Shown here piece by piece: positions 2,871-52,201 of a stretch of 64,000 nt of DNA (position 1 is the stretch's first letter; each line of letters starts with the position of its first letter). Source of the stretch: an uncultured Bacteroidota bacterium. Its GTDB lineage: Bacteria; Bacteroidota; Bacteroidia; Flavobacteriales; Flavobacteriaceae. The stretch lies in assembly GCA_902535165.1 (NCBI GenBank), contig CACASE010000007.1:1-64000 (forward strand), given 5' to 3'. The notes beneath the pieces are model-generated. The model was given only the letters and a program-made list of their open reading frames with translations, did not search any database and was not told the origin of the DNA. The translations under genes were made by a program, and so were the position numbers.

Positions 2871-2886
2871 TTCAGATAAAAAGAAA

Positions 2887-7951: not shown

Positions 7952-8872
7952 TTATCTTATTTTAAATTTAGTTACAACAATTCCATGATCTGATGGATAT
8001 AGAATCTCCTTATCATTAATTTTAAGTGGTTCATTAAAAAATGTCATGTAAGACTCAGATTCAATAGCTTTTATTCCTCCTCCTTTGTAAAAAATATAAT
8101 CGATACGATGTGAATCATTTCTTGTTTTATTATCCCATGTGATACCAGGTTTTTTTAGTGGATTTGGATTTTTTTCTCTAAATGAATCTGAAAAACCCAA
8201 ATCTTCAAAAATTTTTGTTGCGTACCATGGCACGACTAAATCATTATGGATTTTTTTTGTTTTTTTATTCCAGTCAAGGTGTGAGGGACTATTCATATCT
8301 CCACCAACAATAATAGGTATCGAATCGGATTGAGAACCATATTTTTTAAAATATGGTAGAACCCTTTGAATCATTTTATATCTGTGTTCTGTTTTTTCCC
8401 ACTCCAAAAGTTCTTCTGATGTTTTTCCCATTTTTTCGGGTTCATTATTCCAAGGTAAATAATGAAACCAATTTGAAAAAAAATTCATTTTGGTTCCGTG
8501 AACAATAATTTCAGTTCCACCAAGAAAAAAAGGAAAGTCCGTATCAATTCTTTCACCAAATGGAAACTTTGAGAAAACAGACAAATTAACTGATTTATCA
8601 TTTAATGCTGTATCCTTTGATGCAATAAGATGAAAGTTATAACCAAGTTCATTTGATATATAAGGTCCTGAACCATATGTTTCAACCATTAGAATAATAT
8701 CTGGATTAATTTCCCTTACTATTTTAACAACATTTTGTTGACCATTTTCAATATCATTACCCCCATGAAGAATATTCCATGCCATCACTTTAAAAGTTTC
8801 TTTTTGTGCATAAAAATCGCTGCAAAATAGCGATGCTGATATTAATATTATTATTCTTATTGTAGTAGTCAC
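7952..8872 (-). CDS. Endonuclease/exonuclease/phosphatase family protein, exported
   Basis: FKVMAWNILHGG, VGGDMNSPSHLDW, RIDYIFYKG, SDHGIVVTKF. Confidence 0.88.
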   Translation of the reverse strand: MTTTIRIIILISASLFCSDFYAQKETFKVMAWNILHGGNDIENGQQNVVKIVREINPDIILMVETYGSGPYISNELGYNFHLIASKDTALNDKSVNLSVFSKFPFGERIDTDFPFFLGGTEIIVHGTKMNFFSNWFHYLPWNNEPEKMGKTSEELLEWEKTEHRYKMIQRVLPYFKKYGSQSDSIPIIVGGDMNSPSHLDWNKKTKKIHNDLVVPWYATKIFEDLGFSDSFREKNPNPLKKPGITWDNKTRNDSHRIDYIFYKGGGIKAIESESYMTFFNEPLKINDKEILYPSDHGIVVTKFKIR

Positions 8873-9008: not shown

Positions 9009-10385
9009 TTATAAAACTATTTCGAGAGGTTTTGTTTTTTTCCATTCTCCTCTTGTAAAATCGGGAAATATCTGAGGCATGCCGTCCTCCTGTACTGATT
9101 TACCACTTAGTGGAGTAACAGCAGACCAAAAACAACCCTCGTATACATTTTGATCTAGTGGGAGACCTTTGTGTAAACACTCAACTATTCTATACATCAT
9201 AATGCCATCCATTCCACCATGTCCAGATTTCTTTGTTTTAGAATTTAATCTTTTGTAAAGTGGGTGATCATATTTTTCGTAAAGTTTTTCAAGATCATCA
9301 CCTTGAATCCAAGAGTGGTGATCTTTAGTGATATCTTTGAAACCACCCTCAAGCGCAACCCTTGTAGGATAACCTGCTAGCGTTCCTTGTGTGCCTTGAA
9401 TTAAATTTAATCTAGTATATGGTCTTGGACTAGTTTCATCCCATTGAACCAGTACTGTTCTTCCAAGCTCTGTTTTTATAATAGATGTATTAAGATCTCC
9501 ATTTTTAAACTCCATTTTATTCCACTTATGATCTTTGGAAAAGTTTTTTTCAGCATATAATTTTCTTCCTAAAGCTGGACTTGAAAATGATACAAGGGAT
9601 TTAAAATTATCATCTCCTCTAGATAGATTCATATACTGGGCAACAGGACCTAAACCATGGGTTGGGTAAACGTTTCCATTTAATTCTCTGTAGTGAAGTG
9701 TTCTCCAGGAGCCAGTACCCTTTTCATCTTGCATCATTTGCCATCTTAATTCATGTATGTAGGCAGCTTCTCCGTGCAGTAGTTCTCCAATTACATTTTG
9801 CCTACACATATTTAAATACATCAATTCAGCTCTTCCATAATTTACATTTTCTAGCATCATACAATGTTTCTGAGTTTTTTCAGATGTATTAACAATATCC
9901 CACATTTCTTCAAGTGTTACAGCAAGTGGAACTTCCACAAAAGCATGTGAACCTGCTTTCATTGATTCAATTGCCATTGGAGCATGATTATTCCAGTTAG
10001 TACTTATGAATACAACATCAGGTTTAACTTCTTTTAACATTATTTTCCAATTATTTTCATCACCCCAATATGTTTTAACGTTACTTGTTTTTGGACTATA
10101 TTGATATAATCTTTCAAGTTCTCTTTTAACATTATTTTCATATAAATCACAAAGTGCAACAACTTCTGTATTTTCAATTGTTGCAAAGTTTCTTAGGTGC
10201 GAACCACCTCTATTCAATCCTATAAATGCAGCTTTAATTTTTTTCATAGGTTTATCTGAAAAATCACCCATGTATATGCCCTCCCTTGGTATAGATAAAT
10301 TATTTTGACAATTAATACTCAATGTTGATGCAGCAATTGCTCCTAAACTTGATTTTTTTATAAAATTTCTTCTACTGTAAGTCAT
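9009..10385 (-). CDS. Gfo/Idh/MocA family protein resembling GH109 (alpha-N-acetylgalactosaminidase-like, NAD-dependent), Tat signal
   Basis: MTYSRRNFIKKSSLGA Tat motif; IGLNRGGSHLRNF; EVPLAVTLEEMWDIV; HCMMLENVNYGRAELMYLNMCRQNVIGELLHGEAAYIHELR. Confidence 0.82.
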   Translation of the reverse strand: MTYSRRNFIKKSSLGAIAASTLSINCQNNLSIPREGIYMGDFSDKPMKKIKAAFIGLNRGGSHLRNFATIENTEVVALCDLYENNVKRELERLYQYSPKTSNVKTYWGDENNWKIMLKEVKPDVVFISTNWNNHAPMAIESMKAGSHAFVEVPLAVTLEEMWDIVNTSEKTQKHCMMLENVNYGRAELMYLNMCRQNVIGELLHGEAAYIHELRWQMMQDEKGTGSWRTLHYRELNGNVYPTHGLGPVAQYMNLSRGDDNFKSLVSFSSPALGRKLYAEKNFSKDHKWNKMEFKNGDLNTSIIKTELGRTVLVQWDETSPRPYTRLNLIQGTQGTLAGYPTRVALEGGFKDITKDHHSWIQGDDLEKLYEKYDHPLYKRLNSKTKKSGHGGMDGIMMYRIVECLHKGLPLDQNVYEGCFWSAVTPLSGKSVQEDGMPQIFPDFTRGEWKKTKPLEIVL

Positions 10386-10387
10386 AA

Positions 10388-11305
10388 TTATTCAATATAT
10401 CTACTAAAGAATTTCCAAATTTCTTCACTTGCACTTATGTCCATATTTCCCCACGCGCCGGGCCACGTATGGCCTCCACCATAAATAGTATAAAGCCATA
10501 TCTCATGATTACTGTAGCAATCAATTTTTTTATCAAGTTTTACGTAAGAATTATCAGTATTATCAACATCGAGAACATTTTCACTTTTTGTTTTATTACA
10601 TTCATTAATATTTGACCAGTAAGTCATAATTTTCTCAATATGTGGTGCACCTCCCCATCCACCTGCAGATGACATTGAACCGTCTATAGGAACCACCATA
10701 TCATTGGTTCCTGAAATTTGTAGAACTGGGACCTTTCCAGGGTTACAGTTTCTCCAATCATATCCACTCATTGTACCAGTGATTGATGCAATTGCTTTAA
10801 AAGTATCGGACCTCTCACATCCAAGGGTATAGCTCATAAATCCACCATTTGACATTCCACCTACAAATGTATTTTTATCACTTAGGTTATACTCTGCTTG
10901 TAATTTTTTTGCTAAATCTTTAAGAAAAGCTGAATCATCGACTGAACTCATTTCTTTTAAATTCGCATTCCAATGAGTTTGACCAGTGTATAAATTTCGT
11001 GTTCCTTGAGGATAACAAACCATAAAACCATGTCTATCTGCAATGCTGTTCATTGCAGAATAGTTCATAATATTTGTTGAATTACTTGTATAACCATGAA
11101 GAATAAAAACTAAAGGAGCTTTTTCTTTCAAATTATCAGGCTTATATAATGTATACATTCTGTTTAAACCATTATGATTTATAAAAAAATCATATGGATA
11201 AGATATTTCGTTCGAAAAATTATCGTTAAAATCAGAAATTTCACCTTCACACGAAAATGAAATTAAAATCAAAAAAATAGAAAAAAACTTATAAATTTTT
11301 CTCAT
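10388..11305 (-). CDS. PHB depolymerase/feruloyl esterase-like alpha/beta hydrolase (CE1/LpqC type), lipoprotein
   Basis: PLVFILHGYTSNSTNIM, FVGGMSNGGFMSYTLGCE (GxSxG), GGGHTWPG. Confidence 0.85.
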   Translation of the reverse strand: MRKIYKFFSIFLILISFSCEGEISDFNDNFSNEISYPYDFFINHNGLNRMYTLYKPDNLKEKAPLVFILHGYTSNSTNIMNYSAMNSIADRHGFMVCYPQGTRNLYTGQTHWNANLKEMSSVDDSAFLKDLAKKLQAEYNLSDKNTFVGGMSNGGFMSYTLGCERSDTFKAIASITGTMSGYDWRNCNPGKVPVLQISGTNDMVVPIDGSMSSAGGWGGAPHIEKIMTYWSNINECNKTKSENVLDVDNTDNSYVKLDKKIDCYSNHEIWLYTIYGGGHTWPGAWGNMDISASEEIWKFFSRYIE

Positions 11306-11313
11306 CGAAATTT

Positions 11314-12627
11314 TTATGAGATTTTATACTCACCTGGAACTGGAATTTTATAAATTCCATTTTTGTCAGGCATTACTGGCGGATTGGAATCCCAACTTGG
11401 ATTTTCAGGTATCATATTATCATTTGCATTCATAGCCTCATCCCATGTAACCAATTTACCAGAGTAAGTAGCCATTCTTCCAAGAATAGCAGACATAGTT
11501 GATTTAGCTCCATATTCTGTATCATTTAAATGACCACCATCTCTTATAGATTTAAAAAGTCTGTTGTGCTCAATTTGATATGGGCTTTCATCCTTTCTTC
11601 CATCATAAGTGTGAATAATATTTCCTTCATGATCTTCAATGTCAATAACTCCTTTATTAGTCATATTTACTTTTCCTTTAGTTCCAACTAAAAGTTCATT
11701 CACTTGTCTGTGGGTGCCGGGTTGATGTCGACACTGACTTGAAATTGTGGCCCCACTAGCATATTTAAACTCTACAAAATGATGATCAAAAATTTCACCA
11801 TGATCTTTACCTTTTCGAACTTCTCTACCACCCATTCCCTGAGCACTTATTGGAAATTCATTAATAAACCAATTAGCTACATCAATGTTGTGAATGTGTT
11901 GTTCCACTATGTGATCTCCACATAACCAGTTAAAATAATACCAATTTCTCATTTGGTATTCCATTTCAGTTTGATTAGATTGTCTTTCTTTGACCCATAC
12001 TCCAGATGAATTCCATCTTACCTGACCAGAGGTTATTTTTCCTATTACACCTCTTCTAACTTGCTTTAAAATATTGAGATAACTGTACTGATATCGTCTT
12101 TGAAGTCCAACTACTACATTCAATTTTTTTTGATTTGCAACTTTAGCTGTTTCTAAAACCTGTCTTACTCCGTGTGCATCAGTCGCAACTGGCTTTTCCA
12201 TAAATACATGCTTGTCCTGATTAATTGCATATTTAAAATGCAGTGGTCTAAAACCTGGCGGTGTTGCCAAGATTACAACATCTGCTAAATCTATAGCCTT
12301 TTTATAACTATTAAATCCAACCAGCATATTTTTTTCTTTAACTTCTATTTTCTTTTCTCCATCAAATTCCTGTTTAATAGCATTAAGGCTTTTATCTAAT
12401 CTGTCTTTGAATGCATCAGCCATAGCAACTAATTCAACATTTTCATCAGCTCTTAATGCTTGAACTGCAGCACCTGTCCCTCTACCTCCACAACCAACTA
12501 CCGATACCTTAAGTTTCTTATTATTTGCACTATTTGCCATTCTGTTAATATTAAAAGAGGGCAGAACAAGACCTCCTGCCACTAACGATGAACTTTTGAT
12601 AAAAAATCTTCTTTTTAAATTTTTCAT
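11314..12627 (-). CDS. Gfo/Idh/MocA family oxidoreductase with Tat signal
   Basis: KRRFFIKSSSLVAGG; VSVVGCGGRGTGAAVQAL; HVFMEKPVATDAHG. Confidence 0.9.
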   Translation of the reverse strand: MKNLKRRFFIKSSSLVAGGLVLPSFNINRMANSANNKKLKVSVVGCGGRGTGAAVQALRADENVELVAMADAFKDRLDKSLNAIKQEFDGEKKIEVKEKNMLVGFNSYKKAIDLADVVILATPPGFRPLHFKYAINQDKHVFMEKPVATDAHGVRQVLETAKVANQKKLNVVVGLQRRYQYSYLNILKQVRRGVIGKITSGQVRWNSSGVWVKERQSNQTEMEYQMRNWYYFNWLCGDHIVEQHIHNIDVANWFINEFPISAQGMGGREVRKGKDHGEIFDHHFVEFKYASGATISSQCRHQPGTHRQVNELLVGTKGKVNMTNKGVIDIEDHEGNIIHTYDGRKDESPYQIEHNRLFKSIRDGGHLNDTEYGAKSTMSAILGRMATYSGKLVTWDEAMNANDNMIPENPSWDSNPPVMPDKNGIYKIPVPGEYKIS

Positions 12628-12633
12628 TATTTC

Positions 12634-13554
12634 TTAAGTTTTAAAATTATCTATTTTTTTATATGCTTCAATCACAGCAATTTCACCATCTTTTCCTTTC
12701 ATGCTATTTCCATGTTCCATACCTAAAATTCCATTAAATCCTTTATTGTAAATATATTCGAAAATTTTGTTATAATTTATTTCTCCAGTTGTTGGTTCTT
12801 TTCTTCCAGGATTATCACCAATTTGAAAATACGCAACTTCATCCCAACAATTTTTAATATTGGTAATTAAATTACCTTCTTGAATTTGTTGATGGTAAAT
12901 ATCAAATAATATTTTACATGATTTTGAATTAACCGATTTACATATTTCATAAGCTTGTGGACTTTCAGTAAGGAACAGCCCAGGATGATTAATAAAATTT
13001 AAGGGTTCCAAAACCATAACTAAACCATGTGGTTCCAGGATATCACAAGCATATTTTAATGAATCTATTACATTAACAGTTTGGTATGATATGTTTAGTC
13101 TTAAATCCTTGTATCCTGGTACAACTGTCATCCATTTAGCATTAATTCTTTTTGCAACCTCAACGGAAGATTTTATTTCATTTAAAAATTCCTGTCTTTT
13201 TGATTTATCTCCACTAGCTAGGTTAGGATCTTTCCAATGAATGGTGTGTGCAACAAAGACACCCATTTGAATTTCTCTTCTTCCCATAACTTTTGCCATT
13301 TTATTTTGAGTTTCAATAGTTCTTTTTTTAAGATTATTATCCTCAAAAGCAGTGAATCCTTGATCAGCAATATAATTTAGCTGATCAAAAAGATCATCAC
13401 CCGCAATATTTTTAAACATTCCAAAGTGGGGAGCATATTTTAGATTAAACTCATTTTTAGCTAAGAAAAAATTGGAAAAATTAGAATTAATTTGAGGCAT
13501 AGACATGCTCATTGATGTTAAACCAAGACTGTTTAAAAAATGTCTTCTTACCAC
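12634..13554 (-). CDS. Hydroxypyruvate isomerase-like / sugar phosphate isomerase-epimerase TIM-barrel protein
   Basis: GLVMVLEPLNFINHPGLFLTESPQAYEICKSVNSKSCKILFDIYHQQIQEGNLI; YFQIGDNPGRKEPTTGEINY. Confidence 0.88.
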   Translation of the reverse strand: MVRRHFLNSLGLTSMSMSMPQINSNFSNFFLAKNEFNLKYAPHFGMFKNIAGDDLFDQLNYIADQGFTAFEDNNLKKRTIETQNKMAKVMGRREIQMGVFVAHTIHWKDPNLASGDKSKRQEFLNEIKSSVEVAKRINAKWMTVVPGYKDLRLNISYQTVNVIDSLKYACDILEPHGLVMVLEPLNFINHPGLFLTESPQAYEICKSVNSKSCKILFDIYHQQIQEGNLITNIKNCWDEVAYFQIGDNPGRKEPTTGEINYNKIFEYIYNKGFNGILGMEHGNSMKGKDGEIAVIEAYKKIDNFKT

Positions 13555-13574: not shown

Positions 13575-14543
13575 TTATTTAATCCAGTATTTTTTTCTAT
13601 CCTCTTCAGATGGGGTATTAAATGGTCGAACAACACGAAAACCTAGAAATTGAGCATCGGTATGCCACCACAAACTTCTAGGTATTTGAGGATCTTGTTT
13701 TTTCCATTCTTTATTGGAAGCTAACCTTGCAGAGCTTCTTAGTCTGAAAGACTTACTCATGAATGAGCCTCCTCGAACAACTCGGGGGTATAATTTTGTA
13801 GCAACCTCAATTGGATTATTTGAAATTTCACTAAGTTTTTTATTGTATGCAGTCGGGCTATATTGATCTAATGTCCACTCTGAAACATTCCCATGCATAT
13901 CATGGAGACCCCACGGGTTTGGTTTTTTTTGACCAACCTTTTGATATTTTCCATTACTATTATTCTCAAACCATGCATATTCTTCAATTTCATCAGTATT
14001 TTCAAAACTAAATGCATTTTCCGTACCAGCTCTACACGCATATTCCCATTCAGCTTCAGTAGGTAAACGATAATAATTTCCTGTCATTGCTGATAACCAC
14101 TCACAAAATTTTGATGCTGCTAACTGTGTCATGGAAATTGCAGGATAACCTTCAACTCCCATTCCAAAACTCATTTCGACATATGGTGTTGTAGCAGAAC
14201 TTATTGCATCAACATCAAGGTTAACTTCATTTTTAATATCATTTATAATTTGTTTGTTATCAATTTCTCTACTCATGAAGAGCTCATATAAATCCCATGT
14301 AATTTCAAATTTTCCCATCCAAAATGAGTCTACGTAAACTTTATGAACTGGACCTTCATCAGCCATTCTATTTTTCTCATAATTAGGACTACCCATTTTA
14401 AATTCACCTCCTTTTATGGAAACCATTTCAAGTCCGTAATCTGATCCACCTATTTTTTGATTATAGTTTTGAAAATTATTTTTTTGAGAAAAATTTTGTG
14501 ATAAAGAAAATAGCAAACTAAATATTAATAGATAAAACCTCAT
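13575..14543 (-). CDS. SUMF1/FGE-fold protein lacking the catalytic cysteine pair
   Basis: MVSIKGGEFKMGSPNYEKNR, YRLPTEAEWEYACRAGT, GLHDMHGNVSEWTLD, VVRGGSFMSKSFRLRSSAR...LGFRVVRP; no Cys in the C-terminal active-site segment. Confidence 0.88.
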   Translation of the reverse strand: MRFYLLIFSLLFSLSQNFSQKNNFQNYNQKIGGSDYGLEMVSIKGGEFKMGSPNYEKNRMADEGPVHKVYVDSFWMGKFEITWDLYELFMSREIDNKQIINDIKNEVNLDVDAISSATTPYVEMSFGMGVEGYPAISMTQLAASKFCEWLSAMTGNYYRLPTEAEWEYACRAGTENAFSFENTDEIEEYAWFENNSNGKYQKVGQKKPNPWGLHDMHGNVSEWTLDQYSPTAYNKKLSEISNNPIEVATKLYPRVVRGGSFMSKSFRLRSSARLASNKEWKKQDPQIPRSLWWHTDAQFLGFRVVRPFNTPSEEDRKKYWIK

Positions 14544-14558
14544 AAAATTTATTCTATT

Positions 14559-16028
14559 CTAAGTTAAGATATCATGTTTAATTTCACCATGAACATCTGT
14601 TAACCTAAATCTTCTTCCTTGATATTTATAAGTCATTTTCTCATGATTAATTCCAAACAAATGAAGAATAGTTGCTTGCAAATCATGAACATGAACTGGG
14701 TCTTTAACAATATTATATCCTAGATCATCTGTTTCACCATATGAAAAACCTGGTTTAACACCAGCACCTGCCATAAAAATGGTAAAACACCTTGGGTGGT
14801 GGTCCCTTCCATAAGTATTATTTTTAAGTGCAGCTTGTGATCCTTGACTGTATGATGTTCTTCCAAATTCTCCACCCCAAACTACAAGGGTGTCTTCTAA
14901 AAGCCCTCTCTGTTTCAAATCCATTATTAGTGCTGCTGTTGGTTGGTCAATGTCGTTAGCTTGTCCTCTTATTTGTGTTGGTAAATTTTCGTGTTGATCC
15001 CATCCCATATGGTATAATTGAACAAATCGAACATCTTTCTCTATTAGTTTTCTAGCAAGTATACAATTTGCAGCGTATGTTCCAGGTTTTTTTGAGTTAG
15101 GACCATACATTTTCAAAATATTTTCAGGTTCATCAGAAATATCCATTGTCTCAGGAACAGATGTTTGCATTCTATAAGCCATCTCATATTGAGAAATTCT
15201 ACTTTCTATTTCCTTATCACCAAACATATTTATTTGCTCCTCATTTAACTCTGACAGATAGTCTAACATTTTTCTTCTTTCTTGACGAGATAAATTTTCC
15301 GGGTTCTTCAAAAAAAGAACTGGATCTTTTGCAGATCTAAACTGAACTCCCTGGTGTAGGGAGCTTAAAAATCCATTCCCCCACAATCTTGAATATAAAG
15401 GTTGACCTTTTGGTCTACCCGTTCCTCTGGAAAGTAATACTACAAAAGAAGGAAGATTTTTATTTAAACTTCCCAAGCCATAACTAAGCCATGAACCCAT
15501 ACTAGGCCTTCCAGGCTGCTGTGAACCTGTCTGAAAAAAAGTTACTGCCGGATCATGATTGATAGCTTCAGTATTCATTGATTTAATGAAACATAATTCA
15601 TCAACTACTTTACTTAAGTAAGGCAAAAGATCACTTACCCATGCCCTGGATTCACCATATTGCTTAAACTTAGTAGTTCCACCAACCAATGAAAACTTAT
15701 CTTGACCTGATGTCATTCCTGTAAGTCTTTGCCCCATTCTAACGGATTCAGGTAAGTCTATGCCACGCATATCCGTTAATTTTGGTTTGTAGTCAAAAAG
15801 GTCTTGCTGAGCAGGCCCTCCACTTTGAAATAAATAAATAATTCTTTTAGCTTTTGGAGCAAAGTGAGGTAAATTCAGTTGATTTTTTATAACTGAAAAT
15901 GGATCATCATTCGAATTATCAAATGGATTTACAATAGAACCAAGAGCCAAGCCGCCTATGCAAAGACCAGTTTTCTTAAGAAAATTTCGTCTATTATTAT
16001 TTATAAAATGTTTATGAATTTCTTCCAT
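14559..16028 (-). CDS. DUF1501 domain protein (alkaline phosphatase/sulfatase-superfamily-like), Tat signal
   Basis: NNRRNFLKKTGLCIGG; YLFQSGGPAQQDLFDYKPKL; VWGGEFGRTSYSQGSQ...GRDHHPRCFTIFMAGAGVKPG. Confidence 0.9.
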   Translation of the reverse strand: MEEIHKHFINNNRRNFLKKTGLCIGGLALGSIVNPFDNSNDDPFSVIKNQLNLPHFAPKAKRIIYLFQSGGPAQQDLFDYKPKLTDMRGIDLPESVRMGQRLTGMTSGQDKFSLVGGTTKFKQYGESRAWVSDLLPYLSKVVDELCFIKSMNTEAINHDPAVTFFQTGSQQPGRPSMGSWLSYGLGSLNKNLPSFVVLLSRGTGRPKGQPLYSRLWGNGFLSSLHQGVQFRSAKDPVLFLKNPENLSRQERRKMLDYLSELNEEQINMFGDKEIESRISQYEMAYRMQTSVPETMDISDEPENILKMYGPNSKKPGTYAANCILARKLIEKDVRFVQLYHMGWDQHENLPTQIRGQANDIDQPTAALIMDLKQRGLLEDTLVVWGGEFGRTSYSQGSQAALKNNTYGRDHHPRCFTIFMAGAGVKPGFSYGETDDLGYNIVKDPVHVHDLQATILHLFGINHEKMTYKYQGRRFRLTDVHGEIKHDILT

Positions 16029-18304
16029 TAGCTCTTTTGACTAGTTTCATCTAAATTATAAATTAACATGCAAAGTTTATCAAAAGCAACTCTTTCATTA
16101 TTAATAGAATTTTCATCATTAAAATAATTTTTCAGTTTTGATAATTCATTTTTGTTAGGAGATCTTCCAGTTATTGTTCTGTAAAGCTTGGTAATTTTAT
16201 CATTTATATCAATATCCATATTATACACATTTGTTGACAAATGGAGAGCAGCTTTTTGAAACTCGGGATTATTCATCAAGGTCAATGATTGTAATGGAGT
16301 ACTTGTATTTTGTCTTTGAACTTCACAATTGTCTCTAGAGGCGGCATCAAAAATCATCATTGCTGGTGGTGGTACAGTCCTTTTCCAAAATGTGTAGAGA
16401 CTTCTGCGATATAAATTGTCACCAGTGCTCATAACATATTTTGCTAAACTACCACCCCCTCCGCCAGTTACCTCGTCCCAGAGTCCTTCAGGTTGAAGTG
16501 GTTTTACACTTGGGCCTCCTAATTTATTTACCAATAATCCACTGGATTTTAAAATATTGTCACGAATCATCTCAGCTGAAAGTTTTTGTCTCGGGTAGCG
16601 AGATAGATATACGTTTTCTGGATCTAAACTATAATTTAGATCACTTGTACGGCTAGTCTGCTTGTAAGTTGAAGACATAACAATTCTCTTTATTAATTTT
16701 TTTGTATCCCATTGATCACTCTTCATGTAAGTCACTGCAAGCCAATCTAAAAGTTCTGGATTAATAGGTCTATTACCTTGACTTCCAAAGTCATCCGGTG
16801 TTGCAACTATTCCAACTCCAAAAAATTGTTGCCATATCCTGTTTACTACCACTCTTGAAGTTAGTGGGTTTTCTTCATCAAAAAACCATTGAGCAAGGTC
16901 AAGTCTGTTTGCATTAGCTTTTTTCAATGGCATTACAGCTGATGGTGTCATGGATTTAACTTCATTTAACTGAAGATTGTATAGGCCTCTGTTTAGAACA
17001 TAGGTTTTTCTTAAGTTTTCACTTTCTTTCATAACCATGAAAGTTACTTTGTCTAAACTGTCTGGTAATTTTATAAAGTCAAGATTATCATTAACATCAG
17101 ATTTTGATATAGTTAGTCTTGGTTTTGGAGCATAATCTCCATACTGAATTAATCCCTCTTCATCAATATTATTGAAGAAACTATAAAATCCGTAAAATTC
17201 ATCGTGTGTAATATTATCATATTTATGACTATGACATCTGGCACACTCCATGGTCAAACCCATCATTAATTTAGAAGTTGTAATAGCCCTATCTGCAACA
17301 TATTCGACTCTATATTCTTCTGGAATTACCCCACCTTCCTGTGTAATTTTATGATTTCTATTAAAGCCTGTTGCAATAATTTGTTCCTTAGTTGCATTTG
17401 GAATCAGGTCACCTGCAAGTTGCCAAGTGATAAATTCATCATATGGGATATTGGAGTTATATGCATGAATTATCCAATCACGCCAAGGCCACATAGTTCT
17501 TTCCGTATCATCTTGATAACCATGACTATCTCCATATCTAGCGATATCCATCCAAATGGATGCCATTCTTTCACCATAATTTTTTGAGTCAAGTAATCGG
17601 TTGACCAGATTCTCGTAGGAATCTGGGGATTGATCATTTAAAAAATTATCTATTTCTTCAACTGTTGGTGGAAGTCCAATAATATCAAAATATAACCTTC
17701 TAATTAGTATTTCTTTTGATTCTAATTTTGAAAATTCAAGATTATTATTTTCAATATTTTTTGCAATAAAAAAATCAATTTCATTTGATGTCCACTGTGT
17801 GTTGATGATTTCTGGTATTTCTGGTATTTCTGGCTTAATGAAAGACCAATGTTTTTTCCATATAGCACCTTGATGTATCCATTTCTTTAAAACCTCTTTT
17901 TCATATTCCGACAGTGCTAAATTTGACTCCGGAGGGGGCATAACAATAGATTCATTTTCATGATAAATTCTTCTAATCATTTCACTTTCTTCAAGGTTTT
18001 CAAGATCAACAACTTTTTTTAACAGGTCTTCTGTCATTTGATATAAGCCGTCTTTGGTATCTAATCTTAAATTTGCTTTTCTTTGTTTGTCATCAGGCCC
18101 ATGACAGGCAAAACATTTATCAGAAATTATTGGGTTTACATGAAAATTAAAATCAATATTCTCTGGGACATTAGCAACATCCTTGACCTCAAAATTCAAA
18201 TCATTATTTTCAATGTATGAATCTGTGTAAGATTTTGATTTAAAATAATTTAATCCAAAGATTAGCAGGAATGGAATTATTAAATATGGAAGATTTTTTT
18301 TCAT
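16028..18304 (-). CDS. PSCyt1/DUF1549/DUF1553 protein (Planctomycete-type cytochrome c domain)
   Basis: IISDKCFACHGPDDKQRKANLRLDTK (CXXCH), second CARCHSHKYD, AQWFFDEENPLTSRVVVNRIWQQFFGVGIV, QRQNTSTPLQSLTLMNNPEF. Confidence 0.92.
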   Translation of the reverse strand: MKKNLPYLIIPFLLIFGLNYFKSKSYTDSYIENNDLNFEVKDVANVPENIDFNFHVNPIISDKCFACHGPDDKQRKANLRLDTKDGLYQMTEDLLKKVVDLENLEESEMIRRIYHENESIVMPPPESNLALSEYEKEVLKKWIHQGAIWKKHWSFIKPEIPEIPEIINTQWTSNEIDFFIAKNIENNNLEFSKLESKEILIRRLYFDIIGLPPTVEEIDNFLNDQSPDSYENLVNRLLDSKNYGERMASIWMDIARYGDSHGYQDDTERTMWPWRDWIIHAYNSNIPYDEFITWQLAGDLIPNATKEQIIATGFNRNHKITQEGGVIPEEYRVEYVADRAITTSKLMMGLTMECARCHSHKYDNITHDEFYGFYSFFNNIDEEGLIQYGDYAPKPRLTISKSDVNDNLDFIKLPDSLDKVTFMVMKESENLRKTYVLNRGLYNLQLNEVKSMTPSAVMPLKKANANRLDLAQWFFDEENPLTSRVVVNRIWQQFFGVGIVATPDDFGSQGNRPINPELLDWLAVTYMKSDQWDTKKLIKRIVMSSTYKQTSRTSDLNYSLDPENVYLSRYPRQKLSAEMIRDNILKSSGLLVNKLGGPSVKPLQPEGLWDEVTGGGGGSLAKYVMSTGDNLYRRSLYTFWKRTVPPPAMMIFDAASRDNCEVQRQNTSTPLQSLTLMNNPEFQKAALHLSTNVYNMDIDINDKITKLYRTITGRSPNKNELSKLKNYFNDENSINNERVAFDKLCMLIYNLDETSQKS

Positions 18305-18335: not shown

Positions 18336-19058
18336 TTATTTAAAAGCCAAAAAATTCAAGATCACCCCCTCCATAACTTTATAACCGTCTTTATTTGGGT
18401 GAACTAAATCATTTTCTGTAGTATGTTCTGGAACTTTTAAACCTCCATTTCCATTATCCATTACAGAATGATAGTCGACATATTGAATGTTGTTTTCCAG
18501 ACAGTAATCTTTTAATAATAAATTCAATTCTATTACCTTTTTTGAAACATTTTTTATTGACGGTGACCAAGGAAAAGCCTTAGCTGGTAAAACAGAGCAA
18601 ATGAATACCTCTATGTTATTTGCCAATGCAATTTCACTCATTGAAAAAATATTTTCAGCAATATTTTCAATTTTTATCGGACCAGTATTTCCTGCAATAT
18701 CATTTATTCCAGCAAGTATAACTACAGCGTTAGGTTTAAGATTTACCACATCTGGTTTAAATCTAATCAACATTTGTGGAGTAGTTTGACCACTAATCCC
18801 CCTGTTCACAAAGGGGTTATTAATAAAAAAATCAGGATTAAAGTTTGACCATCCTTCGGTTATTGAGTTACCCATAAAAACAACTCTGTTTTCATCTAGA
18901 TCATCAATTAATTCTTTATTAGATTCGGCATACTTTGATAGATTTGCCCAATCATCTAGTGTGCCCCCGCCTTGAATAAAAACAGTGTTATTTTTATTTT
19001 CAGAGTTGCATGATAATAGGCTAAAAATTATTACAGATAGTATTAAATATTTATTCAT
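18336..19058 (-). CDS. SGNH/GDSL hydrolase lipoprotein (start chosen at [20 protein letters not shown] track begins at 19106)
   Basis: VVFMGNSITEGW, NRGISGQTTPQMLIRF, VILAGINDI, DLVHPNKDGY. Confidence 0.9.
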   Translation of the reverse strand: MNKYLILSVIIFSLLSCNSENKNNTVFIQGGGTLDDWANLSKYAESNKELIDDLDENRVVFMGNSITEGWSNFNPDFFINNPFVNRGISGQTTPQMLIRFKPDVVNLKPNAVVILAGINDIAGNTGPIKIENIAENIFSMSEIALANNIEVFICSVLPAKAFPWSPSIKNVSKKVIELNLLLKDYCLENNIQYVDYHSVMDNGNGGLKVPEHTTENDLVHPNKDGYKVMEGVILNFLAFK

Positions 19059-19812
19059 TTTTTTTTGTTTTTGAGTGAATCCATTTGAGAAAATCTTTTT
19101 CAGCAAATGCTATATCCCAACTATTGTGATATACATTTTCATAAAATGTAATCCTAGGATTTCCGCCATTTTTTATAATAGCATCAGCCATTTTTAAAGA
19201 GTGTTGCGGTAAAACAGTTTTATCCAATGAGCCGTGAAAAATCCACAGAGCTACTTTTTTAGCAAAATTTGACACATTATTAGGGTTACCATCTCCACAA
19301 ATAGGAGTTGCGGCAGCAAACATGTCAGGTCTTTGAGCTAAAATAGCATATGTTCCCATACCGCCCATTGACAGTCCAGTTACATACACTCTATTGCTGT
19401 CAACATCTTTACGGTTTATAAATTTATCCATGAATAACACTACTAAGTTTAGTGCATTTGATTTTCTTACATCATAGTCAAATTTATATGGATCATAGTG
19501 TCCACCCCACCAATCATTTTCTGGTGATTGTGGAAAAATAACCCAAGATTTAAATTTTTCTCTGCTAGATTTTTTTAAAAAAAGTTCAGATCCATGGATT
19601 AATTGCAATTCATTGTCACCTCCTCTTTCACCTGCTCCATGCAAAAAAAGGTGAACTGGATATTTTTTATTTTCATCGTAATCTAAGGGCGCTAAAATTC
19701 TGTATTTTAAAGTATCACTCTTTACAATAAATTCTTTCTTCTCAAACAGATTTTTTTGCGAGAATAAAAAAACAGGTAATAATAAAATCAATAAATGTCT
19801 AAAGATCATCAT
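19051..19812 (-). CDS. Exported alpha/beta hydrolase (prolyl oligopeptidase/esterase family)
   Basis: [46 protein letters not shown]. Confidence 0.87.
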
Positions 19813-21475
19813 CACTTGGTAATCTAATATTTTCAACAAGCTTTATAATTTTTTCTGGTGGTTGTGAAGTAAAATTGGACACTGTAATTGAAACAATTAA
19901 ATTAATTAACATAGCTATTGTACCAAACCCTTCAGGCGAAATACCAAACCACCAATCTTCAGGACCACCTCCACCAAACCATCCAAATTTAAATTTCGTC
20001 ATGTAAAAGAGCATAGATAAAATACCTATCAACATCCCAGAAATTGCACCCTCCTTATTCATTTTCTTGTAAAAAATTCCTAGAACAATTGCAGGAAAAA
20101 ATGAAGCAGCAGCTAATCCAAATGCCAGTGCCACTGTTGCAGCAACAAAATCGGGTGGGTTAATACCGAAATATCCAGCTAAAAGAACAGCAAAAAATGC
20201 GGAGATTCTGGCAGCAATTAATTCACCCTTATCACTTATATCGGGCTTAACCATCCTTTTTATTAAATCATGAGAAATTGATGATGATATGACAAGAAGT
20301 AAACCAGCGGCAGTTGAAAGAGCAGCAGCAATAGCTCCAGCAGCAAGAAGGGCAATTACCCAATTTGGAAGTTGTGCAATTTCAGGATTAGCCAATACCA
20401 TTATATCCTTGTCAATAGTTAATTCATTAAGCTGTTCATCTCCAAAATATTGTATAATATTATCATCATTTTTATCATCATATGTCAAAAGTCCTGTATC
20501 TTCCCATTTCTTAAACCAGTAGGGCATTGTTGAATATTCTTTTTCAGAAACTGTTTCAATAAGATTAGTCCTAGCAAAGACTGCAATTGCTGGAGCTGTT
20601 GTATATAAAATAGCAATAAAAAGCAGTGCCCAACCAGCTGACTTTCTTGCATCACTTACCTTCTTGACAGTGAAAAATCTAACAATAACGTGTGGAAGTC
20701 CTGCTGTTCCAATCATTAAAGCAGCTGTTATTAAAAATACATCCAATGTAGATTTAGAACCAGACGTATATTCACTAAAACCTAATTCTTCGTGTAAACC
20801 ATTTAATTTGTCTAATAAATAAACACCATCAGCAGATTGAGATCCAAATCCAAGTTGTGGAATTGGATTTCCAGTCATTTGGATTGAAATAAAAATTGCA
20901 GGAACCATAAAAGCAAATATCAACACGCAGTATTGAGCAACTTGAGTATAAGTTATGCCTTTCATTCCACCAAGTATTGCATAAAATAGTACAATACCCA
21001 TTCCTATAAACACACCTGAATTAATATCAACTTCAAGGTATCTTGAGAATACAATACCAACTCCCCTCATTTGACCAGCAATGTAAGTGAAGGAAACAAT
21101 TAAAGCACAAAAAACAGCAACAGTTCTCGCTACATTTGAGTAATACCGGTCACCAATAAAATCAGGAACTGTAAATTTTCCAAATTTTCGTAAATAAGGT
21201 GCAAGCAATAGAGCTAATAAAACATAACCTCCAGTCCATCCCATAAGATAAACTGACCCATCGTAACCAATAAAAGAAATTATTCCAGCCATTGAAATAA
21301 ATGATGCGGCACTCATCCAATCTGCAGCAGTTGCCATTCCATTAGCAATAGGATTAACACCCTTACCTGCAATGTAAAACTCATTTGTTGATCCTGCCTT
21401 TGACCAAATTGCAATCCCAATGTAGAGAGCAAAAGTCAAACCCACTATAATCCAAATCCAAATTTGTAAAGACAT
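19799..21475 (-). CDS. Sodium:solute symporter (SSS family, VC_2705-like large subunit)
   Basis: 12-14 TM-like segments; [32 protein letters not shown]; paired with DUF4212 gene upstream. Confidence 0.9.
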
Positions 21476-46798: not shown

Positions 46799-47512
46799 TT
46801 ATCTAGTTGCCCATTTTAATCCTCTAGTCAATAACTTCCAAGCATTTTCATTGTTTGTAAATTCATTTGGGTTATGACCAATTGTTAAACAGAAAACTTT
46901 ACCTTTTCCATATAATTTTTTCCATGCTATAGGCATTACCACGCCATCTATTTCAGGAAAATATTTTCCATCAAATGTAGTTGTTGCAATAATATCTATA
47001 TTGGGATCAAAATGGACATACCATTGTTCTGAAAAAAGTTCGAAATCCATAATACCTACAGTTAACTCATCATTTAATATATTAACAATAAATTTCACTT
47101 TGCCCCCTGGGTGACTAACCCATTGTCCACCGACCATAAATTGATAAGATGGATTATTTCTAAATGAATCTGCTATACCTCCGTGTGCACCTGAAAAACC
47201 AACACCATTTTTAACTGCCTTAAGTAAATTATTTAATTCCAATTCATTGATTTGACCCATTGTTATAGATTGAATTATTAGGTCATATTTGATTAATTCT
47301 TCATAATCACTGTAAGCATCAACACCATTATGAATTTTGTAATTCACGTTTTCAGAAATTAGCCATTTTTCGATATGTTTTGCAAACAATTCTGGCTGAT
47401 GTCCATCCCAACCTCCCCAGACAACTAAAATATTTTTATCTTTTAAATTTTGACCAAAAGAAAAATTTAACGTTATAGCAAATAGTATGAGGTAAATAGT
47501 ATTTTTTTTCAT
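46799..47512 (-). CDS. ThuA domain-containing protein, exported
   Basis: LVVWGGWDGHQPELFAKHIEKWL, GVGFSGAHGGIADSFRNNPSYQFMVGGQWVSHPGG. Confidence 0.9.
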   Translation of the reverse strand: MKKNTIYLILFAITLNFSFGQNLKDKNILVVWGGWDGHQPELFAKHIEKWLISENVNYKIHNGVDAYSDYEELIKYDLIIQSITMGQINELELNNLLKAVKNGVGFSGAHGGIADSFRNNPSYQFMVGGQWVSHPGGKVKFIVNILNDELTVGIMDFELFSEQWYVHFDPNIDIIATTTFDGKYFPEIDGVVMPIAWKKLYGKGKVFCLTIGHNPNEFTNNENAWKLLTRGLKWATR

Positions 47513-47561: not shown

Positions 47562-49022
47562 ATGAAAAACAAAAGGAGAAATTTTTTAAAAAAGTCAGCT
47601 GCAGTGGGTGCTGGGTTTTTTATTGTTCCACGTAATGTTCTAGGTGGAAATGGATTTATATCGCCAAGTGACCAATTAAATATTGCTGCGATAGGTGCTG
47701 GGGGAAAGGGTAATGACATTACTGATTCTTGGGCAAGTGGAGAAAGAGTTATTGCACTTTGTGATGTTCATCCTGATGGAGAACATGGAGTTACTGACTC
47801 GAGAAAAACATATCCCAAAGCAAATTTTTATGTTGATTTTAGAGAAATGCTTGATAAAGAAAAAGATTTAGATGCTGTTACAATTAGTACCCCTGACCAC
47901 ACACATGCCGTAATTGCCATTAATGCAATGAATAGAGGGTTACACGTCTATGTTCAAAAACCACTAACTCATAATATTGAAGAAGCCAGAGTTTTAACTC
48001 AGATTGCCGCAAAAAATAAAGTGGTTACTCAGATGGGTAACCAGGGAGGATCAAGTTCTGGAGTTGTTAAAATCCAAGAATGGGTAGATAAGAAGATGAT
48101 TGGAAAAATTAATAAAATCTATGCTTGGACTAACAGACCAGTATGGCCTCAAGGTTTTGACATGAAGGATAATAATGAGGTTAAACCACCAAATTTAAAT
48201 TGGGATTTATGGCTAGGACCTGCTGCTTCCTCAAAGTATACATCACAACTTCACCCATTTAATTGGAGAGGTTGGTGGGATTATGGTACGGGTGCTTTGG
48301 GTGATATGGCATGCCATATATTGGACGCTCCATATAAAACTCTAGGCTTGCATTATCCAACAGACGTTGAGTGTAGTGTAGGTCAGGTATTTGAGCAAGC
48401 CTGGAGCCAAAATTTTGTTCCTAAAGGTTGTCCAGCGTCATCAATTGTGACAATCAATTTTAATAAAACTGAAAAAAATGATTCAAAAATTCAATTAGTC
48501 TGGATGGATGGAGGTTTAAGGCCCAGCCACCCAGAAGCTATACCAGCAGATGATTTCTTAGGTGAAGTAAATAGTACCAATGGCGTTCTTATGATTGGTG
48601 AAAAAGGCGTGATTTCATGTGGAGTATATGGATTAGAGCCTAAGCTTTACAGAAAAGGTAAAGAAACTATTGTTTTTAAAACACCAGATAGAAGTAATTT
48701 GGATTACAATCACCACATGGAATGGATTAATGGAATAAAAGCAGGTTATGGAAGTGATGAGTATAAAAAAATTACTGCACCATTTGAATATGCTGGACCA
48801 TTTACTGAGACGGTCCTAATGGGTAATCTTGCAATAAGATCTTACATGAGTATGGGTAAAGATAAGCCTGAGTATGCACCAAATAGATATCATACATCAG
48901 AATACAATAAATTCGTTGGAAGAAAAAAATTATTATGGGATGGAGAAAATATGAAAATCACGAATTTTGATGAAGCAAATCAATTTGTTGGTAGAATTAG
49001 GAGACAAGGTTGGGAACTTTAA
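47562..49022 (+). CDS. Gfo/Idh/MocA family oxidoreductase with Tat signal
   Basis: MKNKRRNFLKKSAAVGAGFF; IAAIGAGGKGNDI; VTISTPDHTHAVIAINAMNRGLHVYVQKPLTHNIEEAR. Confidence 0.92.
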   Translation: MKNKRRNFLKKSAAVGAGFFIVPRNVLGGNGFISPSDQLNIAAIGAGGKGNDITDSWASGERVIALCDVHPDGEHGVTDSRKTYPKANFYVDFREMLDKEKDLDAVTISTPDHTHAVIAINAMNRGLHVYVQKPLTHNIEEARVLTQIAAKNKVVTQMGNQGGSSSGVVKIQEWVDKKMIGKINKIYAWTNRPVWPQGFDMKDNNEVKPPNLNWDLWLGPAASSKYTSQLHPFNWRGWWDYGTGALGDMACHILDAPYKTLGLHYPTDVECSVGQVFEQAWSQNFVPKGCPASSIVTINFNKTEKNDSKIQLVWMDGGLRPSHPEAIPADDFLGEVNSTNGVLMIGEKGVISCGVYGLEPKLYRKGKETIVFKTPDRSNLDYNHHMEWINGIKAGYGSDEYKKITAPFEYAGPFTETVLMGNLAIRSYMSMGKDKPEYAPNRYHTSEYNKFVGRKKLLWDGENMKITNFDEANQFVGRIRRQGWEL

Positions 49023-49023
49023 A

Positions 49024-49767
49024 ATGAAAAAACTTTTATTTTTTTTCATTATGATTATTTCATTTTCATGCTCAAATGAAAAAAATTGGGTTGTTTTATT
49101 AAATGACAATGATCTGAATGGCTGGCATTACTATAATGATAACGGAAACAAAATTGGTTGGAGTGTTGAAAATGGTATTCTATCCTTTGATCCGACTTTA
49201 GCTAAATTTAAACGTGATCAAGATGGGAATACTATTAATGACGAGAATGGAAATCCAAAGATTGAAAGAAATGATATTGTCACTGATTTAGATTATGAAA
49301 ATTTTAAAATATATTTTGAGTGGAAAGTTGACTCTCTCACCAACAGCGGTTTTATGTGGGGAGTTAAAGAGGGTGATCAATATGAGGAGCCATATGTTAC
49401 TGGACCAGAAATACAAATTATGGATAATGAATATCCAGACGGTATAAAAGCAGGTAGTTTATATGGGATGGTATATCCAGAAGAAGATATGTCTAAGCCT
49501 GTGGGTGAGTGGAATTCATATTTAATAACTATCGACTATAAAAATAATTTTGGAAATGTAATTTTCAATGGAAAAGAAGTTGTTAATTTTCCGGTTGAGG
49601 GTAAAGAGTGGGATTCTATGGTAGCTGGCACAAAATTTGCTAATTGTGATGAGAAGCCATGGGATAATTGTGAGTTTGGAAAATTTAAGTCTGGAAAAAT
49701 ATGTTTACAAGATCATGGTGGATCAATTTATTTTAGAAACATTAAAATTAAAGAACTAGAACTTTAG
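49024..49767 (+). CDS. DUF1080 (3-keto-disaccharide hydrolase-type) lipoprotein
   Basis: MKKLLFFFIMIISFSCSN; WVVLLNDNDLNGWHYYND; SGFMWGVKEGDQYEEPYVTGPEIQIMDN. Confidence 0.9.
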   Translation: MKKLLFFFIMIISFSCSNEKNWVVLLNDNDLNGWHYYNDNGNKIGWSVENGILSFDPTLAKFKRDQDGNTINDENGNPKIERNDIVTDLDYENFKIYFEWKVDSLTNSGFMWGVKEGDQYEEPYVTGPEIQIMDNEYPDGIKAGSLYGMVYPEEDMSKPVGEWNSYLITIDYKNNFGNVIFNGKEVVNFPVEGKEWDSMVAGTKFANCDEKPWDNCEFGKFKSGKICLQDHGGSIYFRNIKIKELEL

Positions 49768-49771
49768 ATTT

Positions 49772-51496
49772 ATGCAGATAAAAAATTCAGCTAAGGAATA
49801 CGATGTTATAATCGTAGGCTCTGGGGCTGGTGGTGGAATGGCCACAAAAATTCTTTCCGAAGCAGGGTTGTCAGTAGCTGTTGTTGAGGCTGGACCGTAT
49901 TATGACCCAGCTAATCCAGAACAAATGACTCAGTTAAAATGGGCATGGCATTCACCTAGGCGTGGTGCAGGCACCAGAAGATTTTTTGGTGATTATGATC
50001 AAGCGTATGGTGGATGGGAAATAGATGGTGAACCATATGGTCAAGTTGGTGATACTGATTTTAAATGGTTTAGATCAAGAATGCTCGGTGGTAGAACAAA
50101 CCACTGGGGAAGAATTTCTTTAAGGTTTGGACCGAATGATTTTAAAAGAAAAAGTATTGATGGTCTTGGTGAAAATTGGCCAATTTCTTATGATGATATC
50201 AAACCTTATTACGATAAGGTTGATAAATTAATTGGAGTTTTCGGAACAAAAGAAAACATGTATAACGAACCTGATGGATTTTTTCTTCCTCCCCCTAAAC
50301 CAAGACTTCATGAGCTCTTTTATATTAAAGGTGCAAGAAAAAGTAATGTTAAAGTAATTCCGTCAAGACTCTCGGTTGTAACAAAAAGGATTAATAATGA
50401 TAGAGGAGTTTGTTATTACTGTAATGGTTGTGCAAGAAGTTGTAATGTATATGCCGACTTTTCCTCTGGATCATGTTTGATTTTTCCAGCACAAAAATCT
50501 GGTGGTCAAATTGATCTTTATGTAAACTCAATGGTTCGGACTGTAACTACAAACGATGAGGGAAAAGCTACTGGTGTTTCATTTATTGACAAAGAAGAAA
50601 ATAAAGAATACAAATTAAAAGGAAAAGTCGTTGTATTAGCAGCATCTGCATGTAGTTCCGCAAGAATTCTTCTAAATTCAAAGTCAAAACAGCATCCTAA
50701 TGGATTAGGAAATAGCAGTGACCTAATTGGTAAGTACTTGCATGATTCAACGGGTGGTGATATGATGGCCTTTATCCCAGAACTCATTGATAGAAAAACA
50801 TATAATGAAGATGGTGTTGGAGGAATGCATGTTTACTCTCCTTGGTGGCTTGACAACAAAAAATTAGATTTCCCAAGAGGATACCACATTGAGGTTTGGG
50901 GTGGAATGGGTAATCCAACATACGGAACAGGTTTCAATGTTAACAGTTTTAACAAATTCTTCGGGATAAATAAGGCTGGTGGATATGGAGATGTTTTAAG
51001 ATCAGACATGAAAAAGTATTATGGTTCTACAATTGGTATTTCTGGAAGAGGAGAGTCTGTAGCGCAAAAGACAAACTACTGTGAAATTGACCCAACTAAA
51101 GTTGATAAATATGGCGTTCCAACTTTAAGATTCAATTATAAATGGACAGACAATGAAATTAAGCAAGCCAAACACATGCAAGATACTTTTGAAGAAATTA
51201 TTCATAATATGGGTGGCATTCCTCTTTGGGGAAAGCCAGGAAAAGATGCCAATTATGGTTTAAATAAACCTGGATGGATAATTCATGAGGTTGGAACAAC
51301 AAGGATGGGTAATAACCCAAAAACATCTGTAACTAATGAGTTTGAGAGGCTTCACGATGTTAATAATGTATATGTTGTTGATGCAGGCCCATTTGTTTCA
51401 CAAGCTGATAAGAATCCAACATGGACAATTTTAGCACTTGCTTGGAGATCATCAGAACATATTGTCGAGCAATTCAAAAAACAAAATTTTTCATAA
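49772..51496 (+). CDS. GMC family oxidoreductase, no own signal peptide, Cys-rich motif
   Basis: YDVIIVGSGAGGGMATKILSEAGLSVAVVEAGP, LGGRTNHWGRISLR, CYYCNGCARSCNVYADFSSGSC, HEVGTTRMGNNPKTSV. Confidence 0.93.
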   Translation: MQIKNSAKEYDVIIVGSGAGGGMATKILSEAGLSVAVVEAGPYYDPANPEQMTQLKWAWHSPRRGAGTRRFFGDYDQAYGGWEIDGEPYGQVGDTDFKWFRSRMLGGRTNHWGRISLRFGPNDFKRKSIDGLGENWPISYDDIKPYYDKVDKLIGVFGTKENMYNEPDGFFLPPPKPRLHELFYIKGARKSNVKVIPSRLSVVTKRINNDRGVCYYCNGCARSCNVYADFSSGSCLIFPAQKSGGQIDLYVNSMVRTVTTNDEGKATGVSFIDKEENKEYKLKGKVVVLAASACSSARILLNSKSKQHPNGLGNSSDLIGKYLHDSTGGDMMAFIPELIDRKTYNEDGVGGMHVYSPWWLDNKKLDFPRGYHIEVWGGMGNPTYGTGFNVNSFNKFFGINKAGGYGDVLRSDMKKYYGSTIGISGRGESVAQKTNYCEIDPTKVDKYGVPTLRFNYKWTDNEIKQAKHMQDTFEEIIHNMGGIPLWGKPGKDANYGLNKPGWIIHEVGTTRMGNNPKTSVTNEFERLHDVNNVYVVDAGPFVSQADKNPTWTILALAWRSSEHIVEQFKKQNFS

Positions 51497-52201
51497 ATGA
51501 AAAGAAGAGATTCATTAAAAACCATGGCATTAGCATCATTAGGTGCTAGTTTATTTTTGGAGTCATGTTATGGTATAAGTAGAGAGACTATCACCAGGTC
51601 ACTCACCAGATATGAATATGGAAGAACACCTGAAGAGAAAGAAATTGATGATAAACTTTTTGCTCAAAAATTCTTCACAAATGATGAGTTATTGACTTTA
51701 GATAAGTTATGTAATATAATTCTTCCACCTAACGAATTTGGATCAATAAGAGATGCTGAGGTTGTACAATTAATTGAATTTATGGCTAAGGATATTCCAT
51801 CATATCAGGAGCCATTAAGAAATGGTTTGGTATGGATTGACAAAGAATGCAAAACAAGATTTACTAAAATATTTATTGACTGTGAGCTTTCGCAACAAAA
51901 AGAAATTTTAGATGAAATTGCTTATTATAATCCAAATGAAAATATGGATGACCAGTCTGAACCAGTTCAATGGTTCAACTTAGTTAGAAATTTAACTATG
52001 ACTGGTTATTTTACATCTGAAGTGGGTATAAAAGAATTAGGTTATAAAGGTAATTTTCCAAATGTTTGGGATGGTGTTCCACAAGACGTACTTGATCAAT
52101 ATGGTTTAGAGTATGATAAAGAATGGTTGGATAAGTTCGTCGATCAATCTAAAAGGAATATAATTGCTGAGTGGGATGATGATGGAAATCTAATAACATA
52201 A
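51497..52201 (+). CDS. Gluconate 2-dehydrogenase subunit 3 family protein (Tat-type/lipobox N-terminus)
   Basis: MKRRDSLKTMALASLGASLFLESC; FFTNDELLTLDKLCNIILP; abuts GMC gene. Confidence 0.9.
   Translation: MKRRDSLKTMALASLGASLFLESCYGISRETITRSLTRYEYGRTPEEKEIDDKLFAQKFFTNDELLTLDKLCNIILPPNEFGSIRDAEVVQLIEFMAKDIPSYQEPLRNGLVWIDKECKTRFTKIFIDCELSQQKEILDEIAYYNPNENMDDQSEPVQWFNLVRNLTMTGYFTSEVGIKELGYKGNFPNVWDGVPQDVLDQYGLEYDKEWLDKFVDQSKRNIIAEWDDDGNLIT

Follow-up and report, generated by a model that had tools for sequence, protein, structure and literature searches.

The window analysed here is a stretch of 64,000 nucleotides from an uncultured flavobacterium. On its minus strand, a long run of genes begins at 21475 and reaches down to 9009 with intergenic gaps of -56 to +31 nt, followed by 136 nt to the gene at 7952-8872. 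The interval 9009-13554, in which a sequence-only reading of the same DNA had placed three genes, is the 3' part only of this run. The three open reading frames (9009-10385, 11314-12627 and 12634-13554, all on the minus strand) are real and belong to the families named there, but the gene count was wrong, since four genes are present and the esterase at 10388-11305 had been missed. Upstream of the four, the run includes a symporter, two esterase-type hydrolases, a PSCyt/PSD1 protein, a DUF1501 protein and an FGE-like protein. In addition, the DUF1080/GMC module that had been proposed at 46.8-52.2 kb is confirmed, with genes for ThuA, Gfo, DUF1080/3keto-disac_hyd, GMC and Gluconate_2-dh3. The genes are as follows.

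19799..21475, minus strand: sodium/solute symporter of the VC_2705 type, first gene of the run (TIGR03648, 855 bits, cut-off 320)
19051..19839, minus strand: alpha/beta-hydrolase esterase, same operon
18336..19106, minus strand: SGNH/GDSL hydrolase, same operon (Lipase_GDSL_2, 80 bits)
16028..18304, minus strand: PSCyt1-PSCyt2-PSD1 protein, same operon (CxxCH at residues 64 and 354)
14559..16028, minus strand: DUF1501 protein, same operon (514.5 bits)
13575..14543, minus strand: FGE/SUMF1-fold protein, partner gene of the Gfo-TIM pair (FGE-sulfatase, 152.6 bits)
12634..13554, minus strand: hydroxypyruvate-isomerase-like TIM barrel with Tat signal, uncharacterised clade (AP_endonuc_2, 106.9 bits)
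11314..12627, minus strand: Gfo/Idh/MocA oxidoreductase with Tat signal, uncharacterised clade (GFO_IDH_MocA and C-terminal domains, Pfam)
10388..11305, minus strand: CE1/PHB-depolymerase-like secreted esterase, between the two Gfo-fold genes (NF050058, 160 bits, cut-off 150)
9009..10385, minus strand: GH109 glycosidase (NAD-dependent alpha-N-acetylgalactosaminidase family) with Tat signal (Pfam and similarity to AmGH109A)
7952..8872, minus strand: endonuclease/exonuclease/phosphatase-family protein, downstream end of the conserved block (PF03372)
46799..47512, minus strand: ThuA-family protein, second locus (PF06283, 120 bits)
47562..49022, plus strand: BT_2158-like glycoside 3-dehydrogenase (Gfo), second locus (NF058561, 449 bits, under the cut-off of 750)
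48967..49767, plus strand: DUF1080 / 3-keto-disaccharide hydrolase, second locus (PF06439, 128 bits)
49772..51496, plus strand: GMC oxidoreductase, LacA-like by context, second locus (GMC_oxred_C/N; conserved in the genus)
51497..52201, plus strand: Gluconate_2-dh3 small subunit, second locus (PF13618, 102.6 bits)

Comparison of the relatives' loci shows that the gene order is kept in much of the genus, and the conservation of both order and proteins indicates that the operon arrangement does not arise by chance. The counterpart of the PF03372 gene adjoins GH109 in three loci (L077, L089 and L091), and a compact variant, SSS-FGE-Gfo-esterase-GH109 without the TIM barrel, is present in G007 and G021. 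The esterase at 10388-11305 has its GMSNGG, Asp and His motifs. Also inside this flavobacterial operon, at 14559-18304, is the pair of DUF1501 and PSCyt1/PSCyt2/PSD1 proteins with two CxxCH motifs, a pair of which Planctomycetes are the best-known source.

The protein encoded at 9009-10385, described earlier as GH109-like, matches AmGH109A (6T2B) over nearly its full length with 540 bits and 56.5% identity, and Pfam detects both Glyco_hydro_109_C (PF21252, 187.5 bits) and GFO_IDH_MocA. The residues compared were the His of the GGHGG loop, the Tyr general base and the His acid. In AmGH109A the chemistry is carried out by His404, Tyr226 and His259 (PMC10755693), and all three are kept here, Tyr209, His243 and His389 corresponding to Tyr226, His259 and His404, respectively. 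A Spirosoma GH109 in which Ala replaces the His of the YPT(H)GLGP motif, corresponding to His243, is no longer active (PMC6521355). With the C-terminal domain, the near-full-length match and an intact set of catalytic residues, its assignment as a bona fide GH109 family member is well supported; its activity and substrate would be those of the family, N-acetylgalactosamine being the sugar on which the characterised members work. The published mechanism of GH109 is self-contained, with the whole redox cycle in one active site (PMC10755693, PMC6521355), so that the enzyme needs neither a second Gfo nor a TIM barrel. We therefore reject the suggestion that GH109 forms part of the first half of a multi-enzyme pathway, as it completes the cycle alone.

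The other Gfo-fold protein of the operon, at 11314-12627, has the NAD-binding domain, EKP lysine and catalytic His of the Gfo/Idh/MocA superfamily. Lys145 (of EKP), Glu242 and His246 do not vary among the 47 sequences compared, so that the protein is probably an active oxidoreductase. Nevertheless it falls under every NCBIfam equivalog cut-off: it is a member neither of the BT_2158 family (NF058561, 49.5 bits against 750) nor of IolG (TIGR04380, 70.5 bits against 355), and both identities are rejected by profile score. Its identity to E. coli YcjS is about 25%, over part of the length only. Judged from these scores, it appears to belong to none of the characterised clades tested, be it inositol dehydrogenase or the 3-keto enzymes. 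The sequence-only reading had named two findings that would speak against its proposal, namely lost active-site residues and a place in inositol or other dehydrogenase clades; the residues are in fact kept, and by profile score the Gfo does not group with IolG.

For the TIM barrel, the nearest characterised proteins are Hyi and OtnI at about 30% identity (Hyi with 108 bits in BLAST), and against the hydroxypyruvate isomerase family TIGR03234 it scores 131 bits with a cut-off of 353, and is thus not a member. Among 88 orthologues the predicted metal ligands Glu183, Asp218, Gln244 and Glu280 are invariant, as is the Hyi-like motif R-x-E-P-x-x-G-E-I-N-Y; by these conserved residues the barrel looks catalytically intact. 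In the tree, a single clade unites the orthologues and sets them apart from Hyi and OtnI, although the reference branches are long and the placement relative to the references is less sure. An AlphaFold model with a mean pLDDT of 84 finds its best fold matches in Hyi-like proteins (TMt 0.84) and ketose 3-epimerases, and also matches the 3-keto-glucoside 4-epimerase YcjR and the 2-hydroxy-3-keto-glucal hydratase AtHYD; the fold searches find the right superfamilies, and do not separate isomerase, epimerase and hydratase for this protein. By score, both the operon Gfo and the TIM barrel stay outside the characterised families of 3-keto enzymes.

The GH109, Gfo and TIM proteins begin with the twin-arginine stretches SRRNFIKK, KRRFFIK and VRRHFLN, respectively, and a TatC gene is found in the genome. 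In the structural models of Gfo and TIM, confidence is low over the first 30-33 residues, which fits signal peptides. As for the FGE-like partner at 13575-14543, both cysteines of the formylglycine-generating enzyme are absent, and the positions are not conserved in its orthologues. This cysteine-less FGE-fold protein is a frequent companion of the Gfo-TIM pair across Bacteroidota. A second FGE-like gene at 21780-22811, divergent from the operon, has both cysteines and is a candidate for the maturation of two sulfatases of the window (6531-7943 and 25213-26757).

In the second locus, the Gfo at 47562-49022 is the better match to BT_2158, the Bacteroides thetaiotaomicron glycoside 3-dehydrogenase (taken from NCBIfam and PMC11300592), and would be the window's better candidate for this activity than the operon Gfo. 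The DUF1080/3-keto-disaccharide-hydrolase domain has seven matches in the 1.3 Mb genome (G000), the one at 48967-49767 included, and some copies adjoin BT_2158-like Gfo genes on other contigs (C19 and C9). For a streamlined ocean flavobacterium, this appears to be a heavy investment in C3-oxidation chemistry, spread over several loci.

Elsewhere in the window, a NagB-like deaminase fused to a PIG-L deacetylase domain is encoded at 29415-31325, with a symporter and a sugar nucleotidyltransferase nearby, and the region is possibly a locus for amino-sugar use. At 654-4968, a DNA polymerase III alpha-like gene lies in two frames (654-2870 and 2887-4968), while in a relative (G018, locus L089) it is a single frame of 1437 codons; the split may be either a frameshift or an assembly or sequencing error.

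We then turn to the neighbours of the TIM barrel in other genomes. A contig scan gives at least 588 relatives, and the neighbours of the best 80 were examined. Among these 80 loci, the TIM orthologue has near it a Gfo in 43, an FGE-like gene in 42, Gluconate_2-dh3 in 31, GMC in 30, DUF1080 in 14, and GH109 in 5, all of them near relatives; in 14 neither GMC nor Gfo is nearby. With a background of about 0.55 Gluconate_2-dh3 genes per Mb, derived from 21 of the genomes of these loci, about 1% of 20 kb windows would carry one by chance. The 31 of 80 observed within about 10 kb correspond to a binomial probability of about 1e-38, which is a guide only, since these 80 are the closest in similarity and their loci are related and non-independent. 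On the tree, at least three changes of the GMC-neighbour label are forced by the starred branches. Six flavobacterial loci show the genes in a single run: in L074, GMC, Gluconate_2-dh3, DUF1080, FGE-like, Gfo and TIM are consecutive (confirmed by Pfam), and in L101, L108, L109, L111 and L112 the order is Gluconate_2-dh3, DUF1080, FGE-like, Gfo, TIM and a BT_2158-like Gfo. Outside this group, TIM orthologues of 46% identity lie in plasmid-borne clusters of Sphingomonas (cytochrome c, sugar isomerase, MFS, TIM, DUF1080, Gluconate_2-dh3, sugar isomerase, GMC) and Catenovulum (TIM, haem protein, DUF1080, GMC, Gluconate_2-dh3). Besides, a Gfo orthologue (42%) in the planctomycete Aquisphaera adjoins DUF1080 and a sugar isomerase, and in a Parabacteroides locus SUMF1, Gfo and a distant isomerase follow one another as in the FGE-like/Gfo/TIM trio.

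The orthologues thus stand beside GMC, Gluconate_2-dh3 and DUF1080, as a role in a 3-keto-glycoside pathway would predict, and it is through gene neighbourhood that the operon Gfo and TIM are linked to 3-keto chemistry. The genome studied here has its TIM/Gfo genes and its GMC gene in separate operons 34 kb apart, and in several genus members, represented by incomplete MAGs, GMC is present and TIM was not found. Since the genes are joined in other bacteria, the earlier proposal of two complementary loci was a good call, now backed by linkage that its author could not have known, and the two loci of the window probably belong together.

We consider it fairly probable that the run is an exported amino-sugar glycan operon combining two kinds of redox-assisted sugar chemistry. 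The domains, conserved catalytic residues, export signals, operon and neighbourhood linkage across phyla are seen directly in the data; we infer the substrates, the direction of the Gfo, exactly what the TIM barrel catalyses, and that the symporter serves uptake. GH109, with its own bound NAD, would remove terminal N-acetylgalactosamine, the sugar being oxidised at C3, undergoing elimination, gaining water and being reduced back in one active site. The esterases of the operon would strip acyl groups, and the symporter may import the acid so released. Gfo, TIM and the FGE-like protein would form a separate conserved set that partners a GMC/DUF1080 system, of which the locus at a distance of 34 kb is an example. 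There, the GMC enzyme or the BT_2158-like Gfo would oxidise a glycoside at C3 and DUF1080 would then cleave it, and the TIM barrel, as a divalent-metal isomerase, epimerase or hydratase, would act with Gfo on the 3-keto-sugar or on its glycal, rearranging and reducing it. As GH109 so seldom stands beside TIM, a common promoter may be all that links the two modules. The sequence-only reading is therefore partly supported; its family-level idea stands, while its split of labour does not: GH109 works by itself, and Gfo-TIM-FGE goes with GMC/DUF1080. We propose only tentatively that the exported TIM barrel supplies the missing step for the free 3-keto-sugar or glycal left after GMC/DUF1080 cleavage, acting as isomerase, epimerase or hydratase, with the exported Gfo as its NAD-bound partner.

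Three other explanations have to be weighed. The Gfo might be an exported inositol or polyol dehydrogenase and the TIM barrel a true hydroxypyruvate or 2-oxo-tetronate isomerase, in a sugar-acid or inositol pathway without glycan cleavage. The top NCBIfam scores, IolG for Gfo and hydroxypyruvate isomerase for TIM, point this way, as do the best PDB profile matches (inositol dehydrogenases, and the Hyi-like 3NGF and 1K77), but these scores lie far under the cut-offs. Hyi and IolG are cytosolic enzymes, whereas both proteins here carry Tat signals; moreover, the TIM orthologues form their own clade located with GMC/DUF1080, and no true glyoxylate carboligase is found in the 82% complete genome (best 307 bits, cut-off 711). 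A Hyi role in glyoxylate metabolism is disfavoured by this and by the Tat signal, and we regard this explanation as quite improbable. TIM, Gfo and FGE might also lack any 3-keto role and be mere passengers in a secreted polysaccharide operon of a generic kind, which would suit the mixed neighbours, sulfatases and SusC/D in some loci included; this seems quite unlikely in view of the repeated GMC/Gluconate_2-dh3/DUF1080 linkage in Bacteroidota and Pseudomonadota and the Gfo-DUF1080 adjacency in a planctomycete.

The remaining explanation takes the TIM barrel as a 3-keto-glycoside beta-eliminase of the AtOGE/C-glycoside eliminase type and Gfo as the final reductase, giving a complete oxidise-eliminate-hydrate-reduce set. 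It has in its favour the Pfam families and the logic of gene content shared with the Agrobacterium and levoglucosan operons. In AtOGE and PuCGE, however, a catalytic His lies two residues past the strand-5 metal ligand (His134 in AtOGE; PMC10628242, PMC8563793), and this position is Leu185 in 88 of 88 TIM orthologues, the equivalence being read from the motif without superposed coordinates. The strand-7 metal ligand is Gln instead of His, and DUF1080 already gives the cleavage step in many clusters. With the catalytic His missing, an eliminase is disfavoured, and we hold this explanation to be unlikely. If our own proposal is true, the TIM barrel would have a new function, in at least several hundred species, at a step still open in a known pathway. 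C3-oxidation glycan cleavage is itself a recently recognised alternative to ordinary glycosidases.

Compared with known systems, the GH109 protein shares with AmGH109A and the Elizabethkingia 2IXA the family, the near full-length match, the catalytic Tyr and both His, and the GHGG loop; unlike theirs, its gene shares an operon with those of esterases and of a Gfo-TIM pair. The TIM barrel resembles Hyi and OtnI in its fold, Glu-Asp-Gln-Glu metal-site pattern and conserved motif, and differs in its low identity, Tat signal, separate clade and other neighbours. BT_2158 is likewise an exported Gfo, a likeness much closer for the second-locus Gfo than for that of the operon. As the sequence-only reading recognised, Gfo and AP_endonuc_2 are families of known C3-oxidation pathways, namely AtOGE/AtHYD/Gfo of Agrobacterium (PMC10628242) and LgdA/B1/B2/C for levoglucosan (PMC10066097). 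The Agrobacterium operon, ordered GlycDH-TAT protein-AtOGE-AtHYD-Gfo (PMC10628242), combines an FAD glycoside dehydrogenase, accompanied by a small Tat protein, with AP_endonuc_2 barrels and a Gfo, and orthologues of the window's TIM and Gfo join the same kinds of genes. Unlike in Agrobacterium, the eliminase His is missing from the TIM barrel here, export signals are found on both TIM and Gfo, DUF1080 is among the genes, and the GMC gene of this genome is in another locus. The GMC, Gluconate_2-dh3 and DUF1080 kinds recur in the lactose use of Caulobacter, for which LacABC, DUF1080, two nearby sugar epimerases and a reductase are important, and the fate of the 3-keto-galactose expected from this LacABC/DUF1080 route is stated to be unknown (PMC9007349). 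An exported barrel clade that recurs beside LacABC/DUF1080-type genes, and not in a single phylum only, is a concrete and testable candidate for handling this sugar.
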